Below, in pieces: positions 38,101 through 59,220 of a stretch of DNA of 64,000 nucleotides; the first letter of the stretch is position 1; each line of letters starts with the position of its first letter. The position numbers were made by a program, and so were the translations under genes. The DNA lies in assembly GCA_021234155.1 (NCBI GenBank), contig JAJEKV010000031.1:8260748-8324747 (forward strand), written 5' to 3'. Below the pieces are notes generated by a model. The model saw only the letters and a list, made by a program, of their open reading frames with translations, was not told the origin of the DNA and made no database searches. The stretch is from Isoetes taiwanensis (lineage: Eukaryota > Streptophyta > Lycopodiopsida > Isoetales > Isoetaceae).

Positions 38101-38462
38101 GATGCAACAACTTATGGAAAACGAAAGTCTCTGATATGAGATTTGTGAAGAAGATAACTTTTTAAAGTGTGTGCAATCTGTGGAGATTGGTATTATATTT
38201 TGTATGCTTGGATCTTGCTCTATGTAACAAGAATTAGGTTTCAATTATGGGAGACATTAAAGAAGAGAATGATTTTCTATGATAGCATTTCGATACTTTC
38301 TTGAAAGCAAAAGACAAAGATTGCCATGACACATCACAAATGTATTAGAGGTTGCGCAAAGGTAAGGATTGACATTGGCAAATGCATATAAAGAAGAGGA
38401 GGAATATTTGCAAACAATGAAATATTTAATTTCCATTCCTTGTTCAATATTCCATTTCCAAA
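35188..38462. other. 3.3-kb stretch without a recognisable gene
   Basis: Short frames at 36240-36480, 36664-36909 and 37719-37931 might be decayed exons (one has DPVHGFQRTNRNLKEQG), but I recognise no family and see no linked splice sites. A tRNA-like B box (GGGTTCAAGTCC on the minus strand) lies near 35780, perhaps a SINE relic. Confidence 0.35.
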
Positions 38463-39912
38463 TAAATTGCTTTTCTTTAGCAATTTTAGGAAAAATATCA
38501 TTTTCAAGAAAGGAACGCTTAAGCTCAATCCTGTTCAAAGTATTGGGATTCAAAAGATAAATGCCTGCATTGATCTTATTGCCTACAAAAATCTGTGGCT
38601 TCTCTACAAACCTTTCAATCTAACCTGTCTCTTCGTCCATCAAGACCACCCCATATTTTGATGGTTCCTCTACCTGGAAGCAAGCAGGATATATTTCTGA
38701 TATTAGCATACAAAAACAAAGTAAAGATATATTTTTTTCTTTATGAATAATTTTAGTAAGCAAACATGTACCTTAATAACCATGATGGAGGCCTCTTTTC
38801 ATGTTGCTCGTGAAATTTGATCATATCACTTAGAGGATACTCACATATCACATCATTGTTAAGAACAAAAAATGGTTTCCCAGATCCACTCAAAAGCTTA
38901 TCCTTTGCTAGGGCCAAAGGGCCGGCTGTGCCTAATGGATCATTCTCTTGCGAAAGAGTCATCTTGATACCAAATCTTGTTTCATACTCTCTTACAAAAC
39001 TCAGCATACGTTCCATGTTAGTCCTGTGCCTCCTGGTACAGGACTATTCATGCATACGACAGACCAGGTCAAGCTCAAGGATCCTCAGTCAGCCACGGGT
39101 CAGCCATCAAAGGCTCAGCAGAAGACCAAGCAGCAGACCACGCAGTCAAAGCCTGCGTCCGTCAACAAGAGGCGCCGCTCAGACAAGTGATGACCCGTCA
39201 CCGCCCGTGTCAGCGTCAGCGTGATTCTAGGCATTTAAAGAGGCACCACCAACATTCCTGCAAATCAGGCCTCCTTCCAGGAGTCGGCACCGAGATCAGT
39301 CAGAGTGTCTATATTGGGCCCAAGGCCATTGTACTATATATATGAGTAGAGCTAGCATATGATGGCTAGATGAGTTTTGAGTCTTGTCTCCTTTCAGTTT
39401 TTCTCTCTATTGCGAGAGCTCATGTATGTTCATCATTGATATCAAGGAAGCTTATCATTTTCCTCTCATTTGTTCTGTTTTCTTCTTCTTCTTCTCTTCT
39501 TGCAAATCCCGCGTGACATAGTCCCCCGGACTCTCCTGTTAGATCCACGGGTCCTCACAGAGGGCTGTCTTCCAGGAGTTCCCGAACCCAGACCCCAAAC
39601 ATTCCAGTTTATAATTGATTGCTAAAATCACCTCATCCACACCAACTGCAATCAATGCTTCTATCTGCATTACGAATCAATTAAATTATGCTTCTAATTT
39701 TAGTATTTAACTCAACTAATTGTCGAAAAAAGAAAGGAGCAAGTTTTTACAAGGCGATCAACGCAAAAAAATGAGAAAAAGAAAAGATTCAAAAACCTAA
39801 CCTGGTGAATGATCATAGGCTTATTAGCAAAATCAACGAGTGGTTTAGGTACACTGAGTGTAAGGGGTTGCAAACGAGTTCCAAGACTGCCAACAAGGAT
39901 CAGACCCTTCAT
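38463..39912 (-). pseudogene. truncated second copy of mannose-1-phosphate guanylyltransferase
   Basis: It matches the intact gene exon by exon: exon 1 39912-39802, exon 2 39664-39602 plus 39015-38772 (split by a solo LTR), exon 3 from 38673. Exon 3 stops being homologous at about 38463, so the whole beta-helix is missing. The signature is altered (GGLGTRL becomes GSLGTRL), there is a stop at 38622-38620 (CAG to TAG) and a one-base loss near 38800. The introns are kept, so it arose by DNA duplication, not by retroposition. Its 5' flank ends at the LTR junction 39957/39958. Confidence 0.85.
39016..39601. mobile_element. solo LTR
   Basis: A 586-bp insertion in exon 2 of the pseudogene starts TGTTAGTCCTGTG and ends ACCCCAAACA, the TG...CA ends of an LTR. 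It is flanked by a 5-bp target duplication TTCCA (39011-39015 and 39602-39606), confirmed by the uninterrupted sequence of the intact gene (GTTCC/GGTTT). It contains a TATA-like CTATATATATGAG near 39340. No internal domain is left, as expected after LTR-LTR recombination. Confidence 0.85.
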
Positions 39913-39957
39913 CGCAATCCAAAATCAAGCCTGGCGGATAGAAAAATTTGACGGGCT

Positions 39958-40358
39958 TTCCTTTGCCAGCTAAATCCATTGCCATGAATTCTGTCTGCAA
40001 TGACTTCTGGAGGCCAAGCCGTCAGTCGAACCCCCTTGAGTTAGAGCCCCTGGGTAGGACTCCCTTGTTGTTATTGATTATACTGATGATGTTGTATATG
40101 TGATGATGATGATGTGCTCACCCTTCGAGGTGATTGTGTTTATATACTGTTAGTTTGTGCTCATGTTTGTTTATTCACGCTTCCACAGATAGGTCGACCC
40201 GATAGGAGACGGGTGAATGACACATCCATTCTTCCCTTGCTGGCTCATTCCTCTGGGAGTGGGGTCAGGTGGATAGCCCCGGTCAGTGTAGCTGCCAGGG
40301 GGAATGATCCTCCTTCGGATACGATGTGTGCATCGTATAAGGAGTAGGGGACGTCACA
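39958..40358 (+). repeat. 5' LTR, 3' end only
   Basis: From TTCCTTTGCCAGC to GACGTCACA this matches 62618-63015 almost base for base. Everything upstream in the 3' LTR (including its TATA box) is absent here; the sequence switches at 39958 to the pyrophosphorylase pseudogene. Confidence 0.9.
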
Positions 40359-40359
40359 G

Positions 40360-40371
40360 TGGTATCAGAGC
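40360..40371 (+). promoter_or_regulatory. primer-binding site for initiator tRNA-Met
   Basis: TGGTATCAGAGC, complementary to the 3' end of plant initiator tRNA-Met, one base after the LTR end. Confidence 0.9.
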
Positions 40372-40576
40372 ATGATCTTGGCAGACCAAGATCGAGCACT
40401 GACCATTTTCCCATAGGACTAACAGTAGATTCAAGCCTTGGGAAATAGCCACCCAAGTAGGAACCTCGAAAATTGGGAAATTTTTTCGAATTTCTAGTGT
40501 AGTAAATAGGTTAATGCTAAGTTAGTAGTAAGTTAGCAGAAATCCAACCTAGAATGGCCAAAAAGAGGTGACCCCT

Positions 40577-40854
40577 CTCACAGAGTGCGCCCAGACCCAT
40601 TCGGTTTGCAATCCGATTCGACCCTGCCGCACTGTGTGAGTGGTGGACTCATGTTGACCTAGTTAGATGTATAATTTAGCTAAACTAATGGTGCAGTTCA
40701 GCTTATCTTCTTGATTCTAGCTAGTTTTGCATGTTATGACACTAAGAAACCCCTTGTAAATTGAAAATTGGACCCAAAAAAAGGTGACCCCTCACAGAGT
40801 GCGCCCAGGCCAAATCCATTTGGAATCCGAATTGATCCTGGCGCACTGTGTGAG
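40577..40854. repeat. stem-loop repeats 1 and 2
   Basis: Copies at 40577-40640 and 40791-40854. Outer arms are CTCACAGAGTGCGCC and GGCGCACTGTGTGAG. The interior has a second, nested palindrome related to CGGTTTGCAAACCG. Both precede the promoter of the H3-like gene. Copy 2 has a diverged inner palindrome (ATTTGGAATCCGAATT). Confidence 0.85.
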
Positions 40855-40965
40855 TGGTGGATGCTTTTTGGCTAAATAACCTAATGTAGCCCTCATATCT
40901 TCACTAATACCTTCTAGATTGGCCCAATATGGAATTGCAGGTCCAAACCCTAAATTTCCCTTACC

Positions 40966-40973
40966 TATAAATA
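40966..40973 (+). promoter_or_regulatory. TATA box of the H3-like gene
   Basis: TATAAATA in the context CCTATAAATAG, 109 bp before the ATG. The same context is found before the next gene, implying internal promoters separate from the LTR. Confidence 0.65.
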
Positions 40974-41074: not shown

Positions 41075-42309
41075 ATGGCCCGCACCAAACAGACAGCCCG
41101 GATTACTGTGCCCCCTGGACATGTCAGCGCCCAAGAGCGAGCAGCTCGGCAGAAGGCCCGAGGGGCTCAGGAGTGAGCCGAGTGAGAGCAGGAAGAATAG
41201 GAGGCCCAACCTAACCCAGATGCCCAAGAGGAGGCCCCGAAGCACCAGGAAGAGGAGCAGCCCCGAGACCTTGAGGAGGGAGGTGAAGAACTCACAGCGG
41301 AAGAAGCAGCAGAGTTACTGCAGAGAGAGCTCGAGAGAGAACTCTTCCACGACTTTAACGGGGAGGACAAGAAGGAGAAGAAAAGGAAGCGGGAGCACGA
41401 GGACGGATTAGAGAGGAAGTCGAAGGAGGAGCGTCGCAGGGAGAAGGAGGAACGGTGCAAGAGGAAGGAGGAGAAGAAGCAAAAGAGGGAGGAGAAGAGG
41501 AGGCGATGGGAGGAGCGAGAGAAGCTGAGGGCAGCGAAGGGAAAAGCTCCTGCGCTGCCAAAGGAGTCAAAGCAGAAAGTGAAGACGACTCCCGCCAAAG
41601 GAGTCACTATCCAGAGCCGCACTCGAAAAGTTTTCCATCCTCATCCGACACCGAGTCGATGAGGGAACTAGGATACCCCCACCGAGGGGCTCGGACCCAA
41701 ACACAAACAAGGGGGAGGAGGAGGATGTGGTAGCAACTAGCAAGGGCACCCCCGCCCTAGGTGGTCGTCGCCAAAGCACCCCAGCGACAGCACCAAGAAG
41801 CCGAAGCCGCAGAGGGAGTCGTACATACTCAAGCAGAACCTTGAGTATAGGAAGAACCTAAAAGAGTACACTTCGTACATGAAAATATACGAAGAATACT
41901 CTAAGTACTATGACGAGCACAAGGTCACGTTTGTCGAAGGAGGCCGGCCGACTAAGAAGAACACTCTGAAGCCGCCACCCGAGAGACCTGTTCCACCAAA
42001 GAAACCCAAGAAGAGAAAGGAAGACTCCAAATTTTCCAGAGCTACTAGGGAGATCCGACATTTTCAGCAGAGCTACGGACTTCTCATCCCCAGAGCTTCC
42101 TTCGCGAGGCTGACACGAGAGATTTTGCAAGAATTCGACAAGTCCAAGCGAGTCACGGACGATATGTTGCTGGCGTTACAGGAGGCGGCCGAGCAGCACC
42201 TGGTCCAACACTTCGAAGACTCTGTTGCATGTGCTATGCATGCAAAAAGAGTAACTTTAATGCCAAAAGATTAAGACTAGCCCAATACATAAAGAAGGAG
42301 CCATATTAA
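41075..42309 (+). pseudogene. histone-H3-like protein with long charged linker, inside the chromovirus
   Basis: The ATG at 41075 opens with MARTKQTAR, identical to the first nine codons of histone H3, then diverges (I in place of K9). One reading frame continues to 42271. A Glu/Lys/Arg-rich, helical linker of about 300 residues leads to an H3 histone fold: alpha-N REIRHFQQS, alpha-1 FARLTREILQEF, alpha-2 MLLALQEAAEQHLVQHFED, and the diagnostic HAKRVTLMPKD. By eye 43 of 77 fold positions match canonical H3. The frame stops right after MPKD (TAA 42272-42274), but one base out of register, RLAQYIKKE, resembling alpha-3, runs to a stop at 42309. In-frame stops at 41174, 41183, 41198, 41660, 41669 and 41738 each equal a C-to-T change of CGA or CAG. 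The linker far exceeds that of any ordinary H3; CenH3 variants also have long tails, but lack this exact N-terminus. If made, it would enter or compete with nucleosomes or H3-tail readers. Confidence 0.8.
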
Positions 42310-42454
42310 GACTGTTGTAAATAAATTTTGTTAATACAAATTTGTAATTTGGATGAGTTAATGTATTTAATCAGGTGTAAGTAGGATGTGTTGCTAAGTT
42401 CTGTACTTGGAATTAACAAATTTGGAGCAAAACCAAGTGTTTTTGGCCCCATCC

Positions 42455-42899
42455 CTCACAGAATGCGCCCAGACCCTGGGCGCTGTGTGAGTGGTCGAGC
42501 ATGGTTTGATGCTAAGTCTTGTCCAAATGCGGAAAGTAAGTATACCATTCGACTTAGCTCACCTTAATTAGTAGGATTTGACCCCTGGTTTGTGGAAATT
42601 GACCAACCCTAACTCAAATGGAGCCCCACCCCTCACAGAGTGCGCCCAGACCAATTCGGTTTGCAAACCGATTCGACCCTGGCGCACTGTGTGAGTGGTC
42701 GACCCGAAAACTAGGCCAAAACTTGTCCAAATGAGGCAAGTAAGGGCTCAATCCGACTTATCTCGATGAGAATGCAGGATTCTATCCTTAGTTTCCATGT
42801 TTGGCATCATCCTTGACCCAAACAAGGCCCCACCCCTCACAGAGTGCACCCAGACCAATTCGGTTTGCAAACCGATTCGACCCTGGCGCACTGTGTGAG
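42455..42899. repeat. stem-loop repeats 3, 4 and 5
   Basis: Copies at 42455-42491, 42632-42695 and 42836-42899. Copies 4 and 5 keep both the outer arms and the nested CGGTTTGCAAACCG; copy 3 has lost the nested palindrome but keeps the outer arms. They fill the space between the H3-like gene and the next promoter. Confidence 0.85.
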
Positions 42900-43075
42900 T
42901 GGTCACACTAAAATTGCCCTAACTTGTCCATGCTTTCCCCAAATTAGATGAAATTTGTTGTTATAGGACCATTAGAATGCATTCTTTAGCATAATTAGCC
43001 TGTGAATTGCATAGCTAGACCTTAGAATCATAGATATTCCACAACTTTGAAAATTCCCAAAATTAGGGTTTTGCC

Positions 43076-43083
43076 TATAAATA
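43076..43083 (+). promoter_or_regulatory. TATA box of the second extra gene
   Basis: TATAAATA in the context CCTATAAATAG, 119 bp before the ATG at 43195, nearly the same spacing as for the H3-like gene. Confidence 0.6.
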
Positions 43084-43194
43084 GGACCACAGGTGTCATT
43101 TGCATCCTACACCCTTGCTCCTCACTCCAAGCCAATTTTTCAGGCCCCTAAGGCGCTTCTCCATCTGTTTGACATCCCCAGCTGCTCATTGACC

Positions 43195-44570
43195 ATGGCA
43201 ACCACTGCATTCAGGCGATGGTACAGCACCACAGCTCATGTGGCCGAGGCTGACATCAACTCCATCTTCGCCGTCTTCCAGAAGGAGCTTGATGCGAAAG
43301 CTACCATCAATGCCACCTCCTTTTACCAAGACATTATGTTTGAGGCCTACCCAATTACATGTCTATCTCTGTCAATAGGAGGAGGTACTTTTTCTATACA
43401 GTAGCCGTAGCTATTTTCCTATCTCTTCGAGGCCAAACCCAGTTAGGAGAACCCTCAGTACAGCCCTTAGAAGTTGAACCCATGGCCATGGCAGTAGCAG
43501 AAGAGGAGCAGATGTGCCTCGAGTACGAACAGGAGGGAGAAGAGGAAGAACACGGGTCGGATTCAGAAGACATCGACCTAGAATAGGAGAGGCAGCAGGC
43601 AGAGCAACAGCTCCAAAACTTTGAAGAAGGACTCAGAGCAACAAGAAGAGCCCCACCACTTGGGCAAGGAATAACAAGCTTGACTCCAGTGTTCATAGGA
43701 GGAGAAGCATACTTAAGCCTCCATGACATTAAAAATCTTCCAGAATGCAGAGATAGGGGTTTCAGAGTGGATGAAATTCTGCATCTCCTATGGCAACAAC
43801 CAGATCTCGACAACTTCATCGATCGAGAAACTCAAGACTTCTCCATCAGCATAAGGGAAGCTAAGACATACACTGGCGAGACGTCATCGGACATCGAGGC
43901 TTACACAGGCATCAGACAAATGATGACCGAGAGGGAATTGCTGTCAGAAGAAGAGTTCCTGGCAATCCAAGAGCGCATGAGCATTAAGGGAAAGTCGACA
44001 TCAGCACTCTTACCTTACTCATCGGCAACGGCACCAGGGCAGCATGGAGGCAGCATCAACCTGAGGAAATTAGTGCACCAGGATTTCAGAGAACTGGAGG
44101 AGGTGCAGGTTGACGAGTACGCGGGAAGACATAGGGCAACCTCGGCATCTGGTGAGGAAGCAGGGCATGATAAAGCCCTCAGGTACTACCTTCCGTTACT
44201 CCTAGACGGAAGAATAGCGGTTATACACCGCCAATTCAGCCCACGGGGTGAAGAAGGAGTCTTTATGCTTATCGCCCTCTCAGGATTTGGAAATCATGCT
44301 CGATTGACCCCAAACGTCGACCATGTCATACTTATCAAGAGAATGATAGCATTAAGTATCGTCGACTTCGCAATCCCCTATAGATGGCAGGGCAGGTTGG
44401 CAGTGATGGCAGCATATACTTCGGATAGGAGGATCGAGGACTTAGTGATAGCGCTCCAAGGAGGCACGGCCACAAACATCCTCAGGAACCTAGGGAGAAC
44501 AATCGGCACGGTCTTAGTGAAGAAATTTTTGGAGGACAACCCCGATTATTTGAAGAAAATCCAGGAATAA
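43195..44570 (+). pseudogene. second extra gene of the chromovirus, function unknown
   Basis: From ATG 43195 (MATTAFRRWYSTTAHVAEAD) the frame shifts once near 43360-43400, then continues in one frame to TAA 44570 with a single stop at 43584-43586. The product would be about 450 residues: a short N-terminal domain ending in a hydrophobic FFYTVAVAIFLSLRGQ, an acidic Glu-rich hinge, and a conserved-looking globular C-terminus of 296 residues (LPLLLDGRIAVIHRQFSPRGEEGVF, VDFAIPYRWQGRLAVMAAYTSDRRIEDLV). I recognise no family. It is not gag, which follows separately. Position and promoter parallel the H3-like gene. Confidence 0.6.
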
Positions 44571-44744
44571 AATTAGAAATGTTAAAAAAAAAAAATATTC
44601 TGATATCTTGGATGTATAAGTATTATTATGAATGTAAATGGTAATCTCAATTATGTTCTCTTAGTATATTTTGTCCCCACAATTATATCATCAAACAACC
44701 AATGCAATGACAAAACAATGATAATCATCAGAGTATAATCTAAT

Positions 44745-45960
44745 GTGTATGCAGCTAGAGTACCTAGAAATGTTGAACAACAAGGACATCATGACCAAGA
44801 GCGTACTCCACCAAGGCGTTTCCAGCCAAGAAACCTACGCCAAGAGTTTGATGCAGTAACATCAGAGGAAGAGCTATCACAGATTCGATCCGACATTCAT
44901 GAGATAAGGGCATTATTGGCAGTAGCAGCAATAGGAGGGCAAGATCAGAATGTGCCATTGCCAGAAACACCGACCGACTGAACAGTACAACAAAGGAAGA
45001 GAAGCCACAGAAGAAGGTCCCCTAGCTCGGGTTCCTCCGACTCTAGACTGATTTCGGATCGGAAGAGCAGGAGGAGAGACAGAACCAACGAGATGACCCA
45101 AGCCGTGATAGGGGCAGGGCACAATCTGAATATCAGAAGAAGGTCGACTCAGCACTTAGCAATGTCTGGAAAGCAAGAAAGCTCGAGCAGTTCTCTGGAG
45201 ACACCAGATCCGAAATGGAAGCAGAAGCGTGGCTTGATGAAATGAGGGAATATGGTAACGCTCATAGCATGAAGGACAAGGACAAAGGCAGAGTAGCTAC
45301 AGCCAACCTGAAGGGAGCAGCTAAGATTTGGTGGAAGGGCTACGCCAAAGCACATGGACTGAGCAGGGGTTGCAGGTTCAAAAAGTTTGCTAAGGCATTC
45401 AAGCGCCATTATGTACCAAGAGAGCATAAGTGTCACATGATGCAACAGTTTTACCGATTGCAGCAGGGCAACAAATCAGTTCAGAAGTACACGGAAGAAT
45501 TCATGAGACTAAGGCTTTATGTGCCGAAGTTGAGTGAAAGGCACGCAGTGGAGGGCTACATAGAAGGGTTGAATGAGGAGATCAGCTAGTAAGAGCAATC
45601 AACCCTAGGATGGTGTCAGAAGCGGAATCCAAAGCAGTCAGCTTGCAAGGGACGAGAATTCAAGAGAATGCACCAAGGCAGCAGTATTACCATGACAAGG
45701 GAAAGGGCACGGGAAGCTATAGCCCAAGAGCGGCGAGCCCAGCAGCCAGCAAGCCTCAGTACAACGCTAATTACAGGAAACAGGGCAATGCAAACTCTGG
45801 CAAGCAGGATAAGAAACAGGTGACCTTCAAAGAGCAAGGAGGGGGGATCCAACTATTCCAAGACAGTGAGACAGTTTTTTTAATCCATTCTCAAAGAGAA
45901 GAAGCAGGAGTGCATAGAAAAGCAGTTGTGCTGCAGGTGTTTCCAACCAGGGCATAGGAC
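44745..45960 (+). pseudogene. gag: gag polyprotein
   Basis: An N-terminal coiled-coil piece is read at 44745-44981. The Retrotrans_gag domain lies at 45130-45589 (KLEQFSGDTRSEMEAEAWLDEM, then FKRHYVP, LQQGNKSVQKYTEEFMRL). A Lys/Gln-rich linker follows, then the zinc knuckle CRCFQPGHRTNNC, part of a perfect CX2CX4HX4C motif at about 45925-45970 in another frame. A stop at 45587-45589 and several frame changes break it. Gag would form the virus-like particle and bind RNA. Confidence 0.8.
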
Positions 45961-46139
45961 AAACAACTGCCCCTTGATGATGAATGCGGCATTAGCGGAA
46001 ATGGGATGGGAGACACCAATGGAAGCTGACGATGACGATGCACCGGACTATATTCATGGTGAGTGCCATATTTTCGCAGCTATTGACACGGAACGCAAAA
46101 AGCCAGTACCAAGTAATCTCCACAACTGGGAAAGCCAAG

Positions 46140-47794
46140 GAGAAATCTTTCATAGTCTTGATAGATACAGGGAGCACCTATAACTTTGCATCGCCAAGAC
46201 ATTGAAGCTTAAGCCCTTGAAGTTAAAGCCTAGACCGGTTGTATTGGCTAGTGGAGCAATCAGGCATACAACAGGAAAAAGAATTAACTTCAACGTAGAC
46301 TTGCCGGGAGTCAACGTAGCATTGGGAGCTGAAGTGATGAACATCGGCAAATATGATTTGATAATAGGAATGGAGTATCTTGAACCAGCAGGAGCCATCA
46401 TTGATTGTGGGAAACGTAAGGTGACCTTAACAACGCCGGAAGGCAAGATCATCGAGATAGCAGGTAAAGAAGTAACACCAATTATGCAATGCATGTCGAG
46501 TGAGAAATTACTTAAGTGCATAAGGAAGGAGCAAGTGGCCTACATCTTCAGACTCCAAGCGGACGAGGAAGAGACGAAAGAAGAGAAGGAGGCCAAAGCA
46601 TTGAAAAAGCTCCCAAAGCCTAGAGCAAAGTTGATAAAGGAATTTCATGACTTGTTTCCTGATGAGATCAAGCGGCTTCCACCCTATAGAGGAGTCGAGT
46701 GTGAAATAACACTTGAACCAGGGACTAAGCCAACTAGCAAGGCACATTATAGAATGTCAACCGAAGAGTTGACGGAGTTGAAGAAGCAACTGCAAGAATT
46801 GCTAGACCTGGGGTTCATAAGACCTAGTGTCTCTCCTTTTGGAGCGCCTATCCTTTTAATGAAGAAGAAGGATGGAAGCCTTAGGATGTGCATTGACTAC
46901 CGCCAGTTAAATAAGCACACCATTAAGAATAAGTATGCCTTGCGTAGATCAGATTATCTCATGGACCAGTTGCAGGGAGCGAAGGTCTTTTCTAAGATAG
47001 ACTTGAGATCAGGTTATCACCAGATCAGGATCAAGGAAGAAGACATCTACAAGTCGGCTTTCAGAACGAGATATGGCCACTATGAGTTCACGGTGATGCC
47101 ATTCGGTTTGTCCAATGCCCCAGCAACTTTCATGAGGCTTATGAACGACGTCTTCCGCGAATTCTTAGATGCTTTCAACATAGTCTTCTTTGACGACATC
47201 CTAGTTTACAGCAAGTCCTTGGAGGAACATGCCCAACACTTGAGGAAGGTACTCGAGAAGTTGAGGAGGCATCAACTCTTTGCGAAGCTATCTAAGTGTC
47301 ACTTCGCAACAGAAAGAGTGGAGTACTTAGGGCATGTGATCACAGTAGAAGGCATCTCCACCGACCCTGCAAAGATTGAAGCAGTGATTGATTGGCCCGC
47401 ACCGAAGAACACACATGAAGTGAGGAGTTTTCTCGGCCTAGCAGGCTATTATAGAAAATTCATCAAGAACTTTGCAAAGGTAGCAGCGCCATTGACGGAC
47501 CTCACCAAAGTAGGGAAGATAAAAGATTGGGCAATTCATTGGCAAAGTAAGGCCTAGAAAGCTTTTGACACATTCAAGGAAGCATTGACAACGGCGCCAG
47601 TTTTGGTCTTACCAGACCCGGCCAAAGATAAGCTTGTGGCGACGGACGCTAGTAGAATAGGAAAGGGTAATGGCCTATGATTCGAAGAAAGTGAATGATG
47701 CGGAGCAGCGCTACCCAACACATGATCAGGAGCTTCTGGCTATAGTAAGAGCTTTAAGAATTTGGAGGCACTATCTATTGGGGAGAAGATTCCA
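46140..47794 (+). pseudogene. pol: pol, first part: protease, reverse transcriptase, start of RNase H
   Basis: The aspartic protease motif [10 protein letters not shown] is at 46158-46187, in a frame that stops just after. The main frame 46202-47557 holds the protease end ([12 protein letters not shown]) and reverse transcriptase: [53 protein letters not shown], and the catalytic [10 protein letters not shown] near 47183-47212, where Ty3 usually has (Y/F)xDD. A TAG at 47555-47557 and a shift precede RNase H (VATDAS, then SKKVNDAEQRYPTHDQELLAIV). The gene is cut at 47794 by the DNA transposon. Confidence 0.9.
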
Positions 47795-47963
47795 GGGTAG
47801 AAGCATGAAAGGGTGGGCAAAAAAAGTGCTCGTATTTTACATTTACAAATTCAAAATGTAAGGAAATCCCTCCCCCCCAGAAATTATTATTCTTGGAATG
47901 AATCATTAATAGGGCAAATAATTTTGAACTCTCCTCCCGCGCTCTGTTCAACCTTCCTCCCGC

Positions 47964-48075
47964 TCGAACCTCCATAGCCGAAAGCTTGACATCCATATTC
48001 GAACCTCCATAGCCGAAAGCTTGACATCCATATTCGAACCTCCATAGCCAAGATCAGGACCTCCATAGCCAAAAG
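47964..48075. repeat. 35-bp tandem repeat near the left end of the DNA transposon
   Basis: Three units starting at 47964, 47999 and 48034 of TCGAACCTCCATAGCC plus AAAGCTTGACATCC-type sequence, with a fourth, partial unit. Subterminal repeats are common in DNA transposons and may bind the transposase. Confidence 0.75.
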
Positions 48076-48114
48076 CTTGCATTTTCAAAGAGCTGAAGCA
48101 CCAGGGAAGAGATC

Positions 48115-49096
48115 ATGACGAAACAGCTTGGAACAAAGACATCTCCAAGGAAATCTCCTCGCAACAAACATGTAAAGCCCATGCCAAGGTCTCCCACTAG
48201 AACTTGCCAAAACTCAAGAGTGGGTCTTCTTCAGATCGGGAGGTCTTGCCGCCCGAGTTTGACAAGGTAAGCATCAGGCAGCTTAGGAGCAACAATTTTG
48301 ATAGCATGTTTCCAGGGCTAGTGCAAATAGTGCAGGATGTTTGGGGTTATGAAGCCCCTGCTGTTAGGGGTTATCAAGAGTGCAGGATTAAGCCTGGTTG
48401 GATGGCAGATTTTTTTCTGTGTATGAGCACCTTTTTTGTAGGAGGGACATTGCAAATCATCACATTCCATTGTATTTTGCCCGAGCATATGCACTTCATT
48501 ACAAAGGAGTAAGCATTGATTGGGATGAGGTGAAAGCAAGTGCAAGTCTTCATTCAAAAGGCTCTCAAAAAGAATCTGACCTGATAGAATTAGCTACAGT
48601 AAAGTCTTCCAATGTTAAAGCTATTAAATGTATGCCTCAGGTAGAATTGGGGCAGCAGTTGGAAATGATGAAAAGGTGGAGGGAAACAAGAGCATTAGAT
48701 TCTGCCTCCATGCTTGATGAAATCTGAGACTTTAAAAGAGAAAAGGAAAACAATGGAAATTGAACTGTTGAAGCATGAGAGTGATAAGAGCTTCTTGACA
48801 AGACTTGTGCAGAGTAAAGATGCAAAAATATGTGAGCAGTTCAAATTATGGCAGGTTTAAAAGCAAGCGGGAAGCCAACTGATGTGCAAATGGCTTTGGC
48901 ATCCCATTTAGAGGAGGAGAAATCAAGTTATATTGCTGACTTAGATGCTCTAATGATTCCCATTGATTGTTTAAAGGCTGATTTGCAAGAATTAGAAGCT
49001 GCCTTTGAAAAAATCAGCAAGGATTTGGAAGTTAATTCCAACTGTGAGAATAGAATAAAGGAGATGACTAAGCATTTAGAAAGATCAGACCGATAG
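48115..49096 (+). pseudogene. coiled-coil protein gene of the DNA transposon
   Basis: ATG 48115 gives a basic N-terminus (KTSPRKSPRNKHVK). Further frames read LRSNNFDSMFPGLVQIVQDVWGYEAPAVRGY, then a helical region LGQQLEMMKRWRETRALDSASM and a C-terminal coiled coil (LEEEKSSYIADLDAL...LEAAFEKISKDLEVN). At least three frame changes or introns are needed. No known family is recognised; similar low-complexity accessory proteins occur in large plant DNA transposons. Confidence 0.45.
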
Positions 49097-49872
49097 GCCT
49101 GCAGCCCGCCTCCCATACTCGCAAGAAGGCGGGCGCTTCATTCTCACATATAAGCAATACTTGCAGCAGCTGCAATGATTGCCTTGACTCGACCATGGTA
49201 ATATCTCCACTTTATGGTCATACATATTGTCTATTTTGTCTTATATTCAGGGTTTCAACGATGAATACATGTGTACATGATTGTTTATGGTCCGAGGACC
49301 TGCGACATTGCTTAGGAATCCCTTCCGAAGGTACATCTATTTCTATTTTGATTACATAATTAGTTTGAGTGTACTTAGATGTAGTTAGTTTCCATCATGT
49401 ACATAACTGTATTAACATTTGATTTGGCGTGGTTTTGTCTTTACTGTAAAGAGGAAATGTATTTGCTTCTGTACTTTACATTTACATGTGCCATGAAGTG
49501 CTTTTCTGGAATTCCTTTACAGGGTGTATTGCATTGACTGTACTTTGCATTTACATGTGATCAGAAATGCATATGAATTTGATATTTGACTTTCCTTTAC
49601 ATTCAATGCTGAATGATGTATTTGATAGGGTGTATTGATAAAATATTTTGTTCTGAAATGTACACTAATGTACTTCTATTTTGTCGTTACATTATCAGCA
49701 GAAAGTTTGCCTGTAGTAAAAACCTACTTGCATGTAATTAACATTTGTTCTGTTTTGATTTGCATCTGATTGTTTTTTCTTCAGATTTTGCTTCTATCTA
49801 CTCTACATCTCCCCTTGATTCTGAATCAAGTGTTTACATTTCTTATTGACACCCAATTGTGTCAATGCAGAC
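49097..49872. other. gene-free stretch with TTTACATGT words
   Basis: AT-rich; TTTACATTTACATGTG-like words recur at about 49480-49740. This is probably intergenic, or an intron, of the transposon. Confidence 0.4.
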
Positions 49873-51810
49873 ATGGGTAGTATCAAGAAAGGAAGAAGTA
49901 AAACTGCAGGTAAACTAAACAATTCATGTTTCGTGCACTATGCTTAAGTTCTGAATATAGCAAAATTTCATGTTGTAGGTGAAAAGAAGAATGTTATTGA
50001 GAAGGGGTTGCATTTACCATTCTCGGACATCCCAATTCTTTGAACACGGCACAAAAGATGCTTAGCTGCTATCGATGTTGGAAGTCCATCCACATCTACA
50101 TCACCTTTGAGAATTGCAACAACTCATAAGCAATCGGTCTGATTTGGAGACGAGGGGTATGTGGAAGGTAGGGTGATTACATTCGATTACATTAAGATTG
50201 CATCTGTTGTAGTTAGAGTTCACTAATGTTCAATATTTTTTGCGGAGGTTGTTTTCCAAAAAAGAGAACCACCTGTTGAAGCCGAAGCTGCTATTATTGA
50301 ACAACTAGTTGAAAGCCCGAGAAAAGTAATTCTCTCTCCTTTTTTGGGGTTTCTTTTTTTATTTTTGAAACTTACGTTGGCGTGTTTCTGAGATAAAAAT
50401 TACTGAAGATGTTGGTGACGACATTGAAAACAGTCCTGAAGCTGCTGTTTTTCAAGTTGAGGAAAAGGCTTGTTCTTTGGCAGGTACGTGTTTCTTTTTT
50501 TGTCTTGCTTTCAAAACATTAGAATGAAGCACTTTCTTGTCTTCAGAGACTTGCGACGATTCAAAGGAGCTAGATGATGTTGAAGAAGCCTTGGAGATTG
50601 CAATACAAGGCAACGACTAAGTTTATGGTCAAAGCCGATGCCAAAAAAAATTGGAAAAAAGAGTGCAAACCAGAGCAGGGACATCCGCTGCAAAACGGTA
50701 ATTGCTAGCTTACATTGACTTACTTATACTTCAGTAGCTTATTATATTTTACTCGTTTTGCAGGTCTAAACCACTGGAAACAGAGATTGGAAGGTATCAA
50801 TTTATGCTTTATTGTCATGGATCAATTGTTAATATGACACTAACATTGACTTACTTATACTTCAGTAGCTTATTATATTCTACTCGTTTTGCAGGTCTAA
50901 ACCACTGGAAACATAGATTGGAAGGTATCAATTTATGCTTTATTGTCATGGATCAATTGTTAATATGACACTAACATCTTGGATCTGACAACAGAAATGA
51001 TGACAAGGATAAACTTATGGAATTCCGCGCATTCAAGAACCTGTCCAACCGGCTGAAATGAAAGTGGTTGCATCTGACATAGCAATTTTATGTGCAACTA
51101 ACTCTAAAATGAGTAGCCGCTTAGTGGATCTTTATGGCAGGTAATAACCTGGTTGTAACCGAGCTGTATTTGTTGCTATTCCTTGTCTCTAATGTTAATC
51201 TTAATCTAATCCAGGTGCTTGTATGAGACATTGCCTTTCGAGTGGAAGAGCAAAATCTTTTTTTATCCTGCTTACAACTATATAAGGTTTAGAGAAGCTA
51301 CCAGCAGCAAAAGAAAGGGTGAATCAGCTGAAGGATCACTGAATGTCATTGAAATAGTGAAATCAGGGATGAAGGGGATTGTGGTAGCTAAATGCCATCA
51401 TATCCTTGCACCTATCCTTGAGAATGACCATTTTGTCTTTGGCTGTTTTACGCCGCACCATCGATTCAAGATCCTACCGCACTGGAAATTCACGTCTTGA
51501 ATCCTCTTACAGGTTATGCGACGAACGAGAAAGCAATCAAAGGGTATGTAATACTTTAAGTTGTTGCTTTGCTTTTCTTCGCTAATTCGGTCTGCTAAAT
51601 TTCGTGATATGTAGGCTGCACACACAAATGTTAACCACATCGATCGGTCAAGTATCTAGAGGCGTCGATTTCATGAAGAGAAATAATGTTAATCGGATTC
51701 AGCAAGTAGAGGTGCCACGCAGCCGGATTTAACATCATGTGGGTTGTATGTGATGGGATTTATGCACAAATATGTTGAAGCTCTTGTCTCTACGGTAGAG
51801 ATATGGAAGT
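49873..51810 (+). pseudogene. Ulp1-like cysteine protease gene of the DNA transposon
   Basis: Small exons joined by GT-AG introns begin at ATG 49873 (MGSIKKGRSKTAG). A segment near 51060-51140 reads VVASDIAILCATNSKMSSRLVDLYG. The next exon, near 51214-51500, contains HHILAPILENDHFVFGCF, where DHF would hold the catalytic His. The Cys exon near 51700-51810 reads DLTSCGLYVMGFMHKYVEAL, resembling the Ulp1 Q/D-x-x-SCG signature. A 131-bp exon-intron unit is duplicated at 50712-50973. Frame breaks are present. The protease call rests mainly on the SCG segment and gene context. Confidence 0.5.
50712..50973. repeat. two tandem copies of a 131-bp exon-intron unit
   Basis: ACATTGACTTACTTATACTT begins each copy (50712 and 50843). 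Each includes a 3' splice site (CGTTTTGCAG) and a short exon GTCTAAACCACTGG. The copies are almost identical, so the duplication is recent. Confidence 0.85.
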
Positions 51811-52295
51811 AAGTTGTATGCCTTCCTTTGTATGTCTGCATCTCATGTTCCTTTAAATATTTCTAACCTTATTTATGGATGTCACGATTACATCTAAATG
51901 GTTCTCTCATGAATACATGCATCCACGGCGACAATTTCTAATAGATGATTTGGTCATGCATTGTGATGCCAATCCGAAAGAACGTATCGGCCAGCCCCTC
52001 CTGATTTACGAAATGATCATGAGTCCGAGTATCGATTTTGCAAGATGAACTATGTAACGGGCTTATATATATCTTTTTTGTTCACATTTGTGTTCACATT
52101 TCCTATCATAAGGAATGTGTAAATGACACTATCTTTGAATAGTATACTCATGATAGTATACTTTATGACTATGTAAGTTTTTTTTTTTTTTTTTTTGAAG
52201 ACAAAAGATTTCTGATTTAAAGAAGCCTTGTACCCTTTTTGGTCGGTCAAAACAGGTTACTTGATTGTTTTCGGTGATATATTTTGTGACCTTGT

Positions 52296-52880
52296 ACCAC
52301 ACCACACCCCACAACACCACACCACAATCCACAACACCACACCACCACACCCCACCACACTCCACCACACCACATGGGACCACCACACACCACTACACAC
52401 ACACCACCACCACCCCCCCACCACCACCCCCCACCACCACCACACACCACACACCACCCCCCCCACCACCACCTCCACCACCGCTCCACACTCCACCATT
52501 TGGTGTATGGTGTATGGTGTGTGGTGGTGAATGGTGTGGTGTGTGGTGGGGAGTGTGGTGAATGGTGTGGTGTGTGGTGGGATGTGCTCGCTCAGTGAAC
52601 ATGATAGTTGGTGTATGGTCTATGGTGTATGGTGTGTGGTGAATGGTGTGGTGTGTGTGTGGGTGTGTGTGTGTGGGTGGGTGAATGGTGTGGTGTGTGG
52701 TGGGATGTGCCTGCTTAAGTGAATATGATAGTTGATGTATGGTCTATGGTGTATGGTGTGTGGTGAATGGTGTGGTGTGTGGTGGGATGTGTGGTGAATG
52801 GTGTGGTGTGTGGTGGGATGTGCTCGTTACGGGTGAATATGATAGTGTGGGGCATGGTATAGTGCATGGTTTGGTGTGGT
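52296..52880. repeat. CCACCACAC / GTGTGGTG minisatellite with a strand switch
   Basis: From about 52296 to 52499 the plus strand is almost only C and A (CACCACACC words). From 52500 on it is G/T-rich (GGTGTATGGTGTGTGGTG). The two halves are reverse complements in style and can pair. The right half also has a higher-order unit with GGGATGTGC and TGATAGTT(G) at about 52573, 52702 and 52815. Apparent proteins in this stretch are artefacts of composition. Confidence 0.85.
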
Positions 52881-53495
52881 ATACACACCCTAACAGTTTA
52901 GTGTTCATTTCATGCGAGATGGTATTGTTCAAGAGGTTTTACGGACCAACATCCGAGAAATTTTTGGCGTGCTTGCTTGATGCTTCAAGATGCATTTAAA
53001 GAAAAATACTCTGAACATATTTTCCTATTGGCTTCTTTGGTTACCATATTTTGTTAGTGTCGGATCATAAATTACGCACCTTAAAATTCCTTGTTGGCTT
53101 TAATGTTTGTTTTGGTATACTATTTCAAGAATTGTACTTTGCATTTTATAATTAATGACAAAACTCGTCATTAACTTGAGTTGCACCAAAAACTTGAGTT
53201 GCAAACTAAGTACCAAACATGTTTCTTATATCTATCTGAGAAAAGGATAGAAATTCGAGTTAACTAAAAAGAACAAATGGAAACTTCGGAGAACAGTTAA
53301 AAGCAAAAAATAGTCACAACAAAAGAGAGAAAAAGGAGTTACATCATTAATGAAAAAGCTTTACAAAAATGGAGTCACAAGGACTATTGCAAAACAAGTT
53401 GAATTAAAAAGCTTTACAAAGAATAGTCACAAGGACTATTACCAAAAAAATTGAAACCAGGGATTACAAAAAACAAGGCTTGATCTTCAGGCCAT
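52881..53495. other. gene-free AT-rich stretch
   Basis: No family recognised on either strand. Repeated words AAAAGCTTTACAAA and CACAAGGACTATT occur at about 53355-53445. Confidence 0.35.
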
Positions 53496-53499
53496 CTTC

Positions 53500-53827
53500 A
53501 GCTCTATATGAAGGTCGTCCTCCATGGCATACATCTTCATTTCGAGGAGTCTCCCTCGTCGAGGTAAGCCTCATGCACCCACTCGATCACCCTGCAACGA
53601 AGCGGCGACTGATGATCCATGATGAGCTTCTCCACCTGCGGTGGAGTGAACCCGCCCGATCAGAAACGGGTGGCCTCCGGAGGAAGACACGGATTCTCCG
53701 AAGGAAGACACGGATCCTCCGGAGGAAGAGGTCCTCCGGAGGAAGAGGAGGACCGTGCTGGCGGGGGAGGAGCAGGCACAATGGCCGGGATAGTGTTCCT
53801 GCGGAGTGTGGTCTTGAACTTGGCCAT
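53500..53827 (-). pseudogene. small proline- and serine-rich gene candidate in the DNA transposon
   Basis: Minus-strand ATG at 53827 (MAKFKTTLRRNTIPAIVPAPPPPAR) leads into a GC-rich repeat of GGAGGAAGACACGGAT type (53680-53760), then GGFTPPQVEKLIMDHQSPLRCRVIEWVHEAYLDEG after one stop. The non-repetitive end looks like real protein. No family recognised; low confidence. Confidence 0.3.
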
Positions 53828-54163
53828 GGCGGAAGTGACGGAGATGGACGGAATGGGGAAGGAGTGAAGGAGATGGTGGAATAGACGATGGGGACGGAAT
53901 GAAGCTGCAGGGCAGAATTTTGGGAATAAAAGGGATGTTTGCATGCATACGATTTTGTTTTGGGAATTAGGCAGAAGAGGAAAGGGATGTATCCATGCAT
54001 AAGATTTCACACCTCGGGAGCCGATCCACCCACCTCAATATTTTTGCAAATGTAAAATGTATAGGTTGAACCATATTATGAGACCAATTGCTTGGTATGC
54101 AAGCACAACCCTAACACAAAGTTAGCAATATCCCACATGCATATATCACAAAAATCGTGCGCA

Positions 54164-54173
54164 TATATAAATA
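54164..54173 (+). promoter_or_regulatory. TATA box of the small Cys-rich gene
   Basis: TATATAAATA in CATATATAAATAGGG, 63 bp before ATG 54227, with a plausible short leader. Confidence 0.55.
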
Positions 54174-54226
54174 GGGTTTTGCTGCTTCATTGATAAGTGT
54201 GGATAGAGATTAGATGTTGAAAAGTT

Positions 54227-54409
54227 ATGGCTCGCTGGGCTTGTAATCTTGATTCTGAGGGGGCGTGTCATAACTGTCCAAGATGTAATCCTAGTCCACC
54301 CTTTTTTTTTAGTAATGGGCTCAAATATCCCACATGCATTCAATGTTCCACATGTTACCAAATCAACAATTGCCAAATCAACAAATGCCAAATGAATGGA
54401 TTATGTTAA
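54227..54409 (+). CDS. small cysteine-rich protein, 60 aa
   Basis: An intact frame with MARWACNLDSEG at the start and eight cysteines, including CHNCPRC and CIQCSTC. It has a good TATA box and no signal peptide, so a zinc-binding peptide is more likely than a secreted one. Its family is unknown. It lies inside the DNA transposon, 60 bp before the heat-shock-like array. Confidence 0.45.
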   Translation: MARWACNLDSEGACHNCPRCNPSPPFFFSNGLKYPTCIQCSTCYQINNCQINKCQMNGLC

Positions 54410-54472
54410 GGCATATTGTGTACCTATGCATATTGTGTTTGGTAAAGCGTGAGTCAACAATATAGAGATAAC

Positions 54473-54650
54473 AAGGAATATTCCTTATTACCTTGAAAGG
54501 AATATTCCTTTTTGCATTGAAAGGAATATTCCTTAGTGCCTAGTTATCAAGAATATTCCTTATTACCTTCAAAGGAATATTCTTTAGTTTGTTTAAGTGC
54601 ACCCATAGTTACAAGGAATATTCCTTATTACATTGAAAGGAATATTCCAC
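54473..54650. promoter_or_regulatory. array of seven heat-shock-element-like palindromes
   Basis: AAGGAATATTCCTT or a close variant at 54473, 54497, 54521, 54549, 54572, 54613 and 54637. The core GAATATTC fits the heat-shock-factor pattern nGAAnnTTCn. The units alternate with ATTACCTTG-like spacers. Position is between the small Cys-rich gene and the minus-strand transposase, so either could be the target. Confidence 0.7.
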
Positions 54651-55590
54651 ATTGAGTATAGCCCTTTCATTTGAGCTAGGCTTGTGGGATATATGCCAGC
54701 ATCAACCATTGGCCAATTGGGTCAGAAAAAGAGGACAGTGGGATAGATTTTGAGAAAAGGATGTTGAACAAATCATTGGCACAAATCATTGGTTAAGGAA
54801 CAAATCATTGGCATGGTACGAGCCATATCAGAAACAGGGGAGAAGGGAATAGACAGGGATAAAAATTCCTTTTTTACCTGTGGTGACTGGTTGATTCCGA
54901 TGGCGGGAGGAGATCGAACGACTAGATCACAATCCATATCCCCAATTCAAATGCAAACTCACCGGCGCCCGATTCTTGAGGAGATCAATGCCGAAACAGG
55001 GGAAACCGATTGAACAAAATCAAGCGGAGAGGCGATCCACGAGTTCGGTACTCCTATTCTTAAACATGCTTTTGTTCCTAATCTAACAATTGCTTATGAT
55101 GTTCTACACGATGCAATGAGGGAGACTTAACAATGTTGGAAGCATGGATCGAGCTATGGGAGTAGCAGCGGACAAGGGGGATGAGGAATCCCAATTATCT
55201 AAAGCAGAACTAGAGAGTATTCTCATTCAACTTAAACAGGAAGTTGTGCATGCAAAAGCAATCAACAAAGTGCTGAAAAGGGCTGAGGTTTGGAGATTCA
55301 ATAGCCTCAAACCATACTTTACCAATCTCTATCATAAATAGCAACAGAAGCGAGAAGCACATGTCTTGCTTCAGTTAGACTTCACCAACTTCCAAACAGG
55401 TACATCACGGACACTCTTCTCACAATTTTTCGAGAACAGGACCATTGCTGATCTCACACCGCAAGACCTTACGGATGAATCTTGAGTCTTGAATCTTGAA
55501 TCTTGAGACCTTACGCTTCTGATTGTTTTTTACAACTTACACTAAGTATAACGATCTTGGAACTATATAAACAATATATTAATGTTTGTG
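54651..55590. other. stretch with one doubtful small frame
   Basis: A 65-codon frame at 55144-55341 (SQLSKAELESILIQLKQEVVHAKAINKVLK) looks like a coiled coil and might be an exon, but has no recognisable family or splice partner. TTGAATCTTGAGTCTTGAATC repeats lie near 55480-55510. Nothing else is seen. Confidence 0.35.
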
Positions 55591-55592
55591 TT

Positions 55593-58500
55593 TTAATCTC
55601 GATTACATTCAGGTTTGCAAGTCCATGCCTTAGTGCATAGAAAAGTTACTTCAACAACGGTAGCATTACTACGAGAGATTCTACAATCTCGGCAAATTTC
55701 CCAACAACATTTCATGCCAATAGTTAGTCGGTTCATATGCATAAGATGTACCTTTAATCTTATGTTTGGTGGCTCAAATGGAAATCTCACCCCATTCTTG
55801 ACTTCGGGATGGACAAGAACTTTCTTTCCTTGAATAAGCCTGTACTTTTTGATGGCAACCAGGAATCAATTCAAAGTAGTTACCAGCTATAACTTTATTA
55901 CCACAATAAAATTCATTTCCATAGTCATCCTTGGTGTCTTCTTCGAGGGCATGTTTCACTTACGTACCTTTGGATGAGATAATAAGGGACCCTTTCATAA
56001 TTGTCCTGGGATGTGAATGATGCAAAATAATCTCCAACCCCCTTTGTCTCATCCACATTGTCCACGTCATTTGCCCACAAGTCCTCCCGCCTCGTACCCA
56101 TCTTCTTCAACATTGTCCCTGTTTGTAGGCTCTAGTTTTCTCAACTCCCACCTGCCACAATGATTAGCATTCTCACAAGCGGGGCCAATCAAAATTGATG
56201 CATGCCTTACAAAAACATGAAAGAGATCTACACATTAACTTTGTTGGATCATTTGGATCTATGGATGATACGCAATGAAGAGATTGCACCCTTTCACTTT
56301 GGGAGCACATCAAATCTTTAGGAACGGTCAATGTCGGACACCTTCCAAAATACCCTTTCCACATCAAAATTTTCTCTTCAAGAACCTCACATGCGGTTTA
56401 CGCATTTTTATCACTTTCCCATCCTTTTTTTTTTTGTTACGCCTCGAGCCATAGTTTGGCTATGGCTCCTTCTCCGTCATGTGTGCCCTTCCCATGTCCC
56501 GAGCCAAAGAAATTCCGGTGCATTCTGATCTTATGCTCTTGATGATACCTAGTTACATGATAGAAAGCTCTTCTCGACTTGAATTGGGCTGCACACCCGT
56601 CGGACCAAACTAAGTGGTATTTCATATGACCAAAGACCATTTTCTTTCAGCCAATTGAGGTGCATCTTGAATGCTTTTTGTACAAAGTGAGTATCATGTG
56701 TTTTGTCATCTGAAATAAAGAAGTGCACACATTTCCTCATTTTACCACATACCTTGAACATCGTGATGTGGACCAATATGCTTGATTTGTTCATTGTACC
56801 AATGTTGTGCTTGAATCTCGTTGAATGGCTTCAAAGTATAATTCTCAGAAATCAACAACCGATATCTGAGTATCATCAACGAAGACTCTTCATGGATTCC
56901 TTGAATTGTTTGCTCTGCCAATGTGCCACAAAAGTTATGATATACAAACTTTGACATATGATCAAACATGTTATCCAACATATTAATGGAGCTGCCTTTC
57001 TTGTCAATTAGCTTTAGTCTTCGTGAAGTTCCTTTCTTGAGGGCTCATTAACGTAACCATAGACTTGCCAATCAAGCGTTTGATCAATGCGCTCCTTGTA
57101 TTCTCTTGGACACAACTCAATTAATTGTTTCCCACGGTTTCCACAATCGATTTGATACATTGTAGCTTATGCCACTTTCGTTGCTGCTTTGCTCTGTCAC
57201 ATACCATAGCCCTCAAAATGTGCTAACATTATCAAATGTCTTGTCCTTGGCTTGACATATTCCGGCATGAGCTTCGGATCTGCGCACACACCACAATTGT
57301 ACGAACAATTTTCATGGAGTCTTGACCTCATCAAATTAAATGCACGCTGTATGCGGTCGATTGCTCATGTTTCACGCAACAACATGTGTTTAGTTCCTTT
57401 AGCTTTCTAATGCAAGAAGGTTTTAAGTATTCAAATTGCCTAAGCCCAATCCAACCTCACGGATCTTGATCCACAAAATTCGGAATAATTCACTGTAAAA
57501 TTACGGTGAAATAAAATTAGTCACCTCATTACATTCGTTACATACAAATCTTTTACATATTCAAGACCCTAAACTCCCACACATACATGTACATTCTGAC
57601 ATGAATTTTATTTCATTTACTATGAAGTCACATAATGTTTTGACAATTAATACATCTCCACACTAATTTCTTCTTAGTTCTGCCTACCTACATCTACAAT
57701 ACATCCGAATATACATGTAAACAAATATACATCCGAAATATACATGTAAACAAATATACATGTAATGTTGCCATGAAATAATTTGACATTTCCATGTAGA
57801 AACAACTAGGGCGATTTGCATCTACATTACATTCAAAAAGTAAAGAAATCTGTTACAAACTTTACATCGGTGTTACAAAATAAAAGACATCTTTATTACG
57901 CCAAAAAGTAAAGAAATCTACAAACTTTACATCAACATTACAAAATAAAAACATCTTTATTCGAAAAACAAGATGCAATTACGACTAAATTACGATCGTA
58001 CACATGTAATGTCAATATATTGAATTGGTTGTGTCCTCTTCTTCATGACATCTCTAATTTTTGGTGAAACCTTTGAGTTATCTAACCAACACCGAAAGCA
58101 ACCATATCCTTCATAGCCCCGATCTATCATATTTGTTCTTGGTTTCGACACTTGCTAATGCCCACAGATTTGTTCCACCTAGTGACATTCTTTTCCTTCT
58201 CTCTCCACCTAGTTTCATATTTCTAGGATGTATTTTCAGCAACTTAGTTGCTAGTGAAGTCTTCAAATTCTCCTTCCTCTCCAACCACCATAGATAGTAC
58301 GAATGCTTTGCGGCAAAGTCATCATTGCTATTTGCATTTTTGGCGTCTTGGAGGCCATCCTTTAAATTCTTTACGGATCTGTTTTCACGATAGCCTCTTG
58401 AGGCCTTCCAATGACCAGCTCAAATAGGAATTGCAATCTTTTGTCCCGCAATAATCTTCTTGCAAATATACTTTGTTTGTTTTGGAGTCAAATTAGATAC

Positions 58501-58944: not shown

Positions 58945-59220
58945 GTTTGATCGATTGAGGAAAGTTCAAAATGTGCGCCAAAGTTTTTTTTTTTTCTTTT
59001 CGCAGGCAAGATATTTAGATTTTATTGATAGAGAAGCTAGTACAAGATTTCGGGAGGATTTGGTATAATTATGGAGAATATTGTACGTCAACCGCCTTTA
59101 TTAATGATAGGCAACTCCATGTAAAATTCAAAATGTATATTACAAACACTTTAACCCAGTTCAAATTTTTACATCAATATACAAAAAAATTCAATCACCC
59201 TTTCATGCTTCTACCCTCCA

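Follow-up and report, generated by a model that had tools for sequence, protein, structure and literature searches.

The plus strand of the 64-kb stretch of DNA analysed here (the window) carries an LTR retrotransposon of the Ty3 type with plant-type features, and our evidence supports the presence within this chromovirus of a gene derived from histone H3, which lies between the primer-binding site and gag (41075-42309, plus strand) and is broken in this copy. This arrangement suggests that a chromatin protein was formerly produced by the element itself, possibly as a means of evading silencing. An initial annotation of the same DNA had proposed a captured H3 or a chromatin mimic encoded by the element, read in one continuous frame; the descent from H3 and the setting in a Ty3 chromovirus held up, whereas the frame proved to be broken in this copy.

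The element was delimited by a pair of LTRs (39958-40358 and 62618-63015, plus strand) that were 96.0% identical over 401 columns by self-BLAST, 12 of the 398 aligned bases being mismatched. The outermost bases at the 5' edge of the 5' LTR seem altered or missing, the true start of the 3' LTR may be near 62598, past a purine-rich stretch, and no clean or matching target-site duplication was seen by eye at the ends of the element. The primer-binding site TGGTATCAGAGC (40360-40371), which we take to be of the initiator-Met tRNA type, adjoins the end of the 5' LTR. A stretch of 4.7 kb separates it from gag (capsid; 45047-45589; Pfam Retrotrans_gag 1.5e-17, Ty3_capsid 2.8e-12), which is followed on the same strand by a weak protease-like region and the reverse transcriptase (46184-47557; Pfam RVT_1 1.9e-38), by the first part of an RNase H split by an insertion (47655-47795; positions 28-74 of the Pfam RT_RNaseH profile), and by an integrase (59599-60940) with an H2C2 zinc finger, a Tf2-1-like SH3 domain and a chromodomain (Pfam 5.1e-19, 2.2e-20 and 3.5e-08, respectively). 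The protease match to RVP_2 was weak (E 0.0057) and under the Pfam cut-off, the best PDB matches of the reverse transcriptase were 4ol8 (RT/RNase H) and the Ty3 Gag-Pol 7q5b, and the catalytic core of the integrase, which had no Pfam match, was recognised by eye only. The order of LTRs, primer-binding site, gag, reverse transcriptase, RNase H and integrase, with the chromodomain at the integrase end (60698-60847), is that of a chromovirus; both this classification and the location of the H3-like gene between the primer-binding site (40360) and gag (45047) agree with the initial annotation. The insertion inside RNase H (47794-59217) measures about 11.4 kb and has perfect terminal inverted repeats of 22 bp at its two ends; its three forward frames gave no separate Pfam match at E ≤ 0.01.

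The H3-like gene begins with MARTKQTAR (41075-41101), the exact N-terminus of H3 as had been reported, and continues with isoleucine in place of Lys9 (41075-41104 together, by translation). The likeness of the tail to H3 is confined to these first nine residues: K4 is present, position 9 is isoleucine, and the remainder could not be aligned to the H3 tail, with residues 10-33 matching it no better than shuffled sequences did (p 0.97, free-end-gap alignment). A candidate second H3-like segment in the tail, with a K27-like AAR, was rejected, since its alignment was likewise no better than those of shuffles. The isoleucine may be a late change in this decayed copy, although it is read from ATT, which is two bases from either lysine codon. 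About 300 residues separate the tail from the fold, and they include the charged linker that had been noticed at the outset (41201-41659, plus strand), an open stretch of 153 codons in which K, R, E and D make up 54% of the residues. The linker is acidic at first (-15 over 41201-41359) and then basic (+20 over 41360-41659), and the charge just before the fold is +14. Kinship of this linker with those of other long H3 proteins was considered and found no support (P0001, p 0.62; P0003, 0.52; P0005, 0.50; P0009, 0.17; P0011, 0.01, the last being one of five tests and possibly a charge-rich match). Two of the long H3 proteins, P0003 and P0005 (278 and 412 aa), have by eye an unusual pre-fold linker in common and possibly represent another family of extended H3 genes.

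The reading of the gene as one continuous frame was wrong, because six in-frame stops (41174, 41183, 41198, 41660, 41669 and 41738) precede its end. Two open stretches within the frame, which ends in the histone fold, measure 153 and 177 codons. The frame of the fold ends directly past MPKD with a stop at 42272 and shifts there, so that one frameshift or more comes on top of the six stops, and this copy of the gene is dead. The statement that the gene ends in an H3 fold with MPKD was right for the fold up to that motif (41984-42271). A remnant of helix alpha3 lies in the next frame (42274-42309, plus strand, by three-frame translation), and its last base is the end coordinate given in the initial annotation. 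This remnant, RLAQYIKKEPY-stop, compares with QLARRIRGERA-stop of H3 (P0022). The complete fold including alpha3 is therefore not contained in a single open frame in this copy; because alpha3-like residues resume in the next frame after MPKD, the fold was probably complete in an ancestor.

Membership of the fold (alphaN, alpha1, alpha2, loop 2 and MPKD) in the H3 family was evident from both profile and sequence comparisons. It matched the Pfam Histone profile PF00125 at 2.9e-23 and 82.9 bits (cut-off 26.4), so the Histone profile search suggested with the initial annotation gave a significant hit and the absence of one is excluded. In the PDB, the best H3 chain matched at 1.7e-19, and among 175 distinct sequences at E ≤ 0.01 the best 60 were all named H3, in agreement with the H3 fold first seen at the end of the frame. 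An AlphaFold model has helices at residues 100-112, 118-132 and 140-172, with a pLDDT of 83-96 in blocks over 101-170, and a Foldseek search with the model of the fold found H3 chains (E 1e-4, TM by target 0.5-0.66); this support is not independent, because H3 relatives were in the alignment used for the model. Searches of a protein database with the H3-like ORF gave 12 proteins out of 42 candidates at E ≤ 0.001 and 7 out of 61 at E ≤ 1e-5, all of them with a Pfam Histone domain and 43-57% identical. Close relatives were not found there, which is weak evidence because the search sees only exact shared 5-residue words and proteins of similar length. A third protein search, in which 7993 candidates were scored and the best 120 listed, was the source of the centromeric H3 (CenH3) and H3 sequences used below. 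Self-BLAST detected no second copy of the H3-like gene in the 64-kb window, and pattern matches at IMG/VR loci (8 for the H3 ORF, 34 for ORF2 described below, and 28 for the reverse transcriptase) were none of them confirmed.

In the fold, 43 of 79 positions are identical to the plant-type H3 P0022 and 36 are mismatched. Positions that are deeply conserved in H3 and CenH3, defined as the same in 80% or more of a hand-picked set of 18 divergent sequences, were kept in 26 of 30 cases, versus 17 of 49 for the other positions (Fisher p 6e-6). This indicates that the fold has a history as a histone, whether in the element or in the host; the selection may already have taken place in the host, prior to any capture. 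Among 24 hand-picked positions that contact DNA or other histones, 16 were kept (R49, R52, R69, R72, R83, Q93, E97, D106, C110, H113, R116, V117, T118, M120, K122 and D123) and 8 were changed (53, 56, 63, 64, 79, 84, 85 and 86). When neutral evolution was simulated from H3 to an equal divergence, 14% of the runs were without a stop, which makes a stop-free fold no rare outcome, and 0.1-3% were without an indel at the two indel rates that were assumed. The quality of the 36 mismatches, on the other hand, was no more conservative than under neutrality (p 0.32), which speaks against strong constraint.

The region in front of gag contains a second open reading frame, ORF2 (43195-44570, plus strand), which is likewise interrupted (its longest open segment, of 327 aa, spans 43587-44570), had no match in Pfam or NCBIfam, and gave an unusable single-sequence structure model (pLDDT 38). 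Two hairpin repeats, arranged as direct repeats (40560-40648 and 40776-40862; fold z -3.1 and -6.9), precede the H3-like gene and three (42448-42500, 42626-42702 and 42830-42906; fold z -4.8, -6.2 and -5.0) precede ORF2, all on the plus strand. For each of the five hairpins, 0 of 200 shuffles folded as well, and the 15-base hairpin core (up to 2 mismatches) occurs in the 64-kb window only in these five. Between hairpins and start codon, TATAAATA boxes recognised by position and motif count are found 109 nt upstream of the H3-like ATG (40966-40973, plus strand) and 119 nt upstream of the ORF2 ATG at 43195 (43076-43083, plus strand); of the 4 occurrences of TATAAATA on both strands of the window, 2 precede these two ATGs. 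The two ORFs run in the direction of the element and have a common layout of hairpins, TATAAATA, a leader of 109 or 119 nt, and ATG. Because hairpins and TATAAATA precede both ORFs, the region has the look of a pair of similarly built cassettes, with the H3-like gene as part of a design that it has in common with ORF2. At the three codon positions, the G+C content in the fold (0.56, 0.38, 0.55) and in ORF2 (0.54, 0.40, 0.52) resembles that in gag. No Rfam family out of 4227 matched the window at the gathering score. By eye, the segment 61640-61900, between the integrase and the 3' LTR, resembles a third, empty cassette, as it has a TATATAA box at 61652 and an ATG with a short leader.

Transposon silencing acts partly via marks on histone H3, and Lys9 is the residue of the silencing mark. 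With this in mind, it is quite possible, if short of probable, that a captured and remodelled H3 was kept by the element as an accessory gene before gag, where it served counter-silencing. A Ty3 chromovirus would have captured an H3-type coding sequence and retained it in front of gag with its own promoter. During remodelling, MARTKQTAR and a nucleosome-forming fold would have been kept, and the other part of the tail would have been replaced by the acidic-then-basic linker. The protein from working copies would then pair with host H4 and enter nucleosomes on the DNA of the element or at target chromatin, and, because Lys9 is absent, we propose that it would resist or blunt silencing by H3K9 methylation. 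The element, the tail, the fold with its histone-like conservation and the layout of the cassettes are observed here. That the gene was taken up by the element, as opposed to landing in it through a chance nested insertion, that its own promoter was used and the gene expressed, and that the protein assembled into nucleosomes and countered silencing are all steps that we infer, from one decayed copy only. Counter-silencing appears to be the likeliest role because of the isoleucine at position 9 and because of precedents described in the accessible parts of several papers: in fission yeast, H3K9M acts dominantly to prevent methylation of K9 and captures Clr4, and G9a was bound in a similar way by a norleucine peptide (PMC5030085); VANC of the Arabidopsis VANDAL transposons is an anti-silencing protein (PMC5735166); and KYP, a K9 methyltransferase of plants, is inhibited by a protein of a geminivirus, which is a plant DNA virus (PMC4606454), so that the K9 methylation step is a known target.

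The same precedents permit a narrower version, in which the protein would be a decoy histone that, with an exact tail up to Arg8 and a hydrophobic residue for Lys9, entered chromatin, trapped or resisted the H3K9 methyltransferases of the host like H3K9M and thereby shielded the retrotransposon from silencing, perhaps alongside ORF2, which would act on the hairpin repeats. We consider this version improbable. Several observations speak against the preferred reading of a captured H3 used for counter-silencing: K9 enzymes may need the tail past residue 9, which is not H3-like here; a search of the accessible text of PMC5030085 for isoleucine, K9I or K-to-I gave 0 matches; and 8 of the 24 contact positions are changed, while the mismatches are no more conservative than under neutrality.

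Alternatively, the H3 gene and ORF2 might be a host segment, or the cargo of another transposon, that landed in the leader of this copy and was useless to the element. In favour of such an event, the stretch between the primer-binding site and gag is 4.7 kb long, the same copy took the 11.4-kb insertion in RNase H, hAT DNA transposons are known to bear H3-like genes, in Pyrenophora together with a central ORF of unknown function (PMC3538342, as far as its accessible text goes), and the linker is richer in G+C by codon position (0.65, 0.39, 0.66) than gag (0.52, 0.38, 0.55). However, both ORFs are in the direction of the element, the fold and ORF2 resemble gag in codon-position G+C, no Pfam transposase was found in the three forward frames of 42300-46300, and 36 differences from H3 in 79 positions are more than a host copy of recent origin would show. 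We regard chance cargo as somewhat unlikely.

A further explanation is that the gene came from CenH3 and steered the chromatin or the integration of the element to centromeres. In 10 diagnostic columns, derived from plant CenH3 of grasses and crucifers (13 distinct folds) versus H3 (9 folds), the element agreed with CenH3 at 5, with H3 at 2 and with neither at 3, and its highest identity was to a grass CenH3-type protein, P0100 (62% among the best 120 of 7993 candidates, 60% in the set used for the tree). AU tests gave p 0.24 for grouping with plant CenH3 and 0.098 for grouping with H3, neither of which was rejected; the set, 30 rows in total, held the element, 14 plant CenH3-type proteins (13 distinct folds) and 10 H3 proteins (9 distinct folds), hand-picked from the 120, and also took 7 of the 19 proteins from the first two protein searches. 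In contrast, the best alignment scores among 139 proteins belonged to P0001, P0003 and P0092, which all have an H3-type loop 1 and lie just above the CenH3-type rows. The loop-1 spacing of the element is 17, as in H3, versus 18-19 in the 11 CenH3-type rows compared, so that the longer loop 1 typical of CenH3 is missing, and its tail begins MARTKQ, versus MARTKH in CenH3-type proteins of Arabidopsis, rice (O. glaberrima) and Zizania. In a tree of 42 rows and 81 columns the element sat on a long branch and had no firm placement; P0012 was omitted from this tree and from alignment A1, and P0132, treated as CenH3 in the tree set, was moved to H3 in the AU set. Chromoviruses of the CRM clade do colonise centromeres (PMC3059260), and CENH3-directed integration is the subject of a reference cited in PMC13317346, to judge from the accessible parts of these papers. 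These comparisons point both ways between H3 and CenH3, and we regard an origin from CenH3 combined with centromere steering as unlikely. Least convincing of the alternatives, and doubtful in our view, is that the basic linker and the fold bound and packed the RNA or cDNA of the element, in particles or en route to the nucleus, for although the protein has strongly basic stretches (+20 over 41360-41659, +14 before the fold) and some DNA viruses encode histones (PMC9145170, in its accessible part), gag lies downstream, a separate promoter seems to serve the H3 gene, and an exact H3 N-terminus is unnecessary for packing.

Relative to known systems, the preferred reading of a captured, remodelled H3 has partial parallels. 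Capture of H3 by a transposon is not new as such, because H3-like (H3L) genes are described, in the accessible parts of the reports, on hAT DNA transposons of Dothideomycete fungi, namely Pyrenophora tritici-repentis (PMC3538342) and Pseudocercospora, Cercospora and Sphaerulina (PMC6710886). Like the element here, these transposons bear an H3-like gene, and in Pyrenophora the gene has insertions in the tail and a fold that is fully neither H3 nor CenH3, next to a second ORF of unknown function (PMC3538342). They differ in being fungal DNA transposons with the gene inside terminal inverted repeats, whereas the gene here sits in an LTR retrotransposon, in a separate TATA cassette, and has an exact MARTKQTAR and a tail set apart from the fold by some 300 residues. 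The initial annotation's statement that no LTR retrotransposon with an H3 gene had been described thus stands for the open-licence PMC literature, within its accessible text, where we found none with any histone gene, and needs to be qualified by the fungal hAT elements. In orchids, Ty3/Gypsy elements have captured an RNA demethylase of the AlkB type, thought to counter surveillance (PMC9289625, accessible part); these too are large plant Gypsy elements whose extra ORF is a regulator captured from the host, though the regulator is an RNA demethylase and not a histone. That study, which covered 121 angiosperms with 25,565 consensus sequences of LTR retrotransposons, reported 15 extra domains; no histone is among those named in the accessible part of its text, and PF00125 is absent from the main text. 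The word histone is likewise absent from the main text of a survey of captured genes in rice and sorghum (PMC3726574) and from a 2026 review of plant gene capture (PMC13317346).

VANDAL transposons, like this element, combine an accessory protein with repeated motifs in their own non-coding DNA, to which VANC binds, and differ in that VANC is not described as a histone in the accessible text of PMC5735166; by analogy, we would guess that ORF2 or the H3-like protein was linked to the hairpin repeats as VANC is to its motifs. Virus-encoded histones (PMC9145170, PMC5423620) are another case in which a genetic parasite encodes a core histone, and the H4 of a bracovirus becomes part of host nucleosomes and changes the expression of host genes (PMC5423620), but the carriers in these accounts, as far as accessible, are DNA viruses, and the accessible main text of the review PMC9145170 has no mention of retrotransposon, retroelement, retrovirus or Gypsy. 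If the preferred reading is true, an H3 supplied by a retrotransposon, with a tail retained as far as the silencing lysine but without that lysine, would be a direct counter-move against silencing and would show, as a natural experiment, how much H3 can lose and remain functional. Transposon-borne H3, described on DNA transposons of fungi, would then also include an LTR retrotransposon.

Several other features were observed around the element. An open frame at 63338-63874 resembles, by eye, a Helitron helicase-like protein, and a 730-codon open frame on the minus strand (7032-9224) has by eye the look of a transposase. A fragment of a mannose-1-phosphate guanylyltransferase gene lies at 20913-21851 on the minus strand (299 bits to two mannose-1-phosphate guanylyltransferase 1 chains, and 247 bits to the next match, the 7d72 beta chain), and a like piece was seen by eye at 38257-38619, also on the minus strand. 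Together with the type of the primer-binding site and the TATA leaders, the best matches of this fragment, which are presumably plant enzymes, suggest a green plant or a streptophyte alga as the host. By self-BLAST, the segment 21544-22450 is repeated, split in two, over 38465-39959, where it reaches the retrotransposon's left edge.
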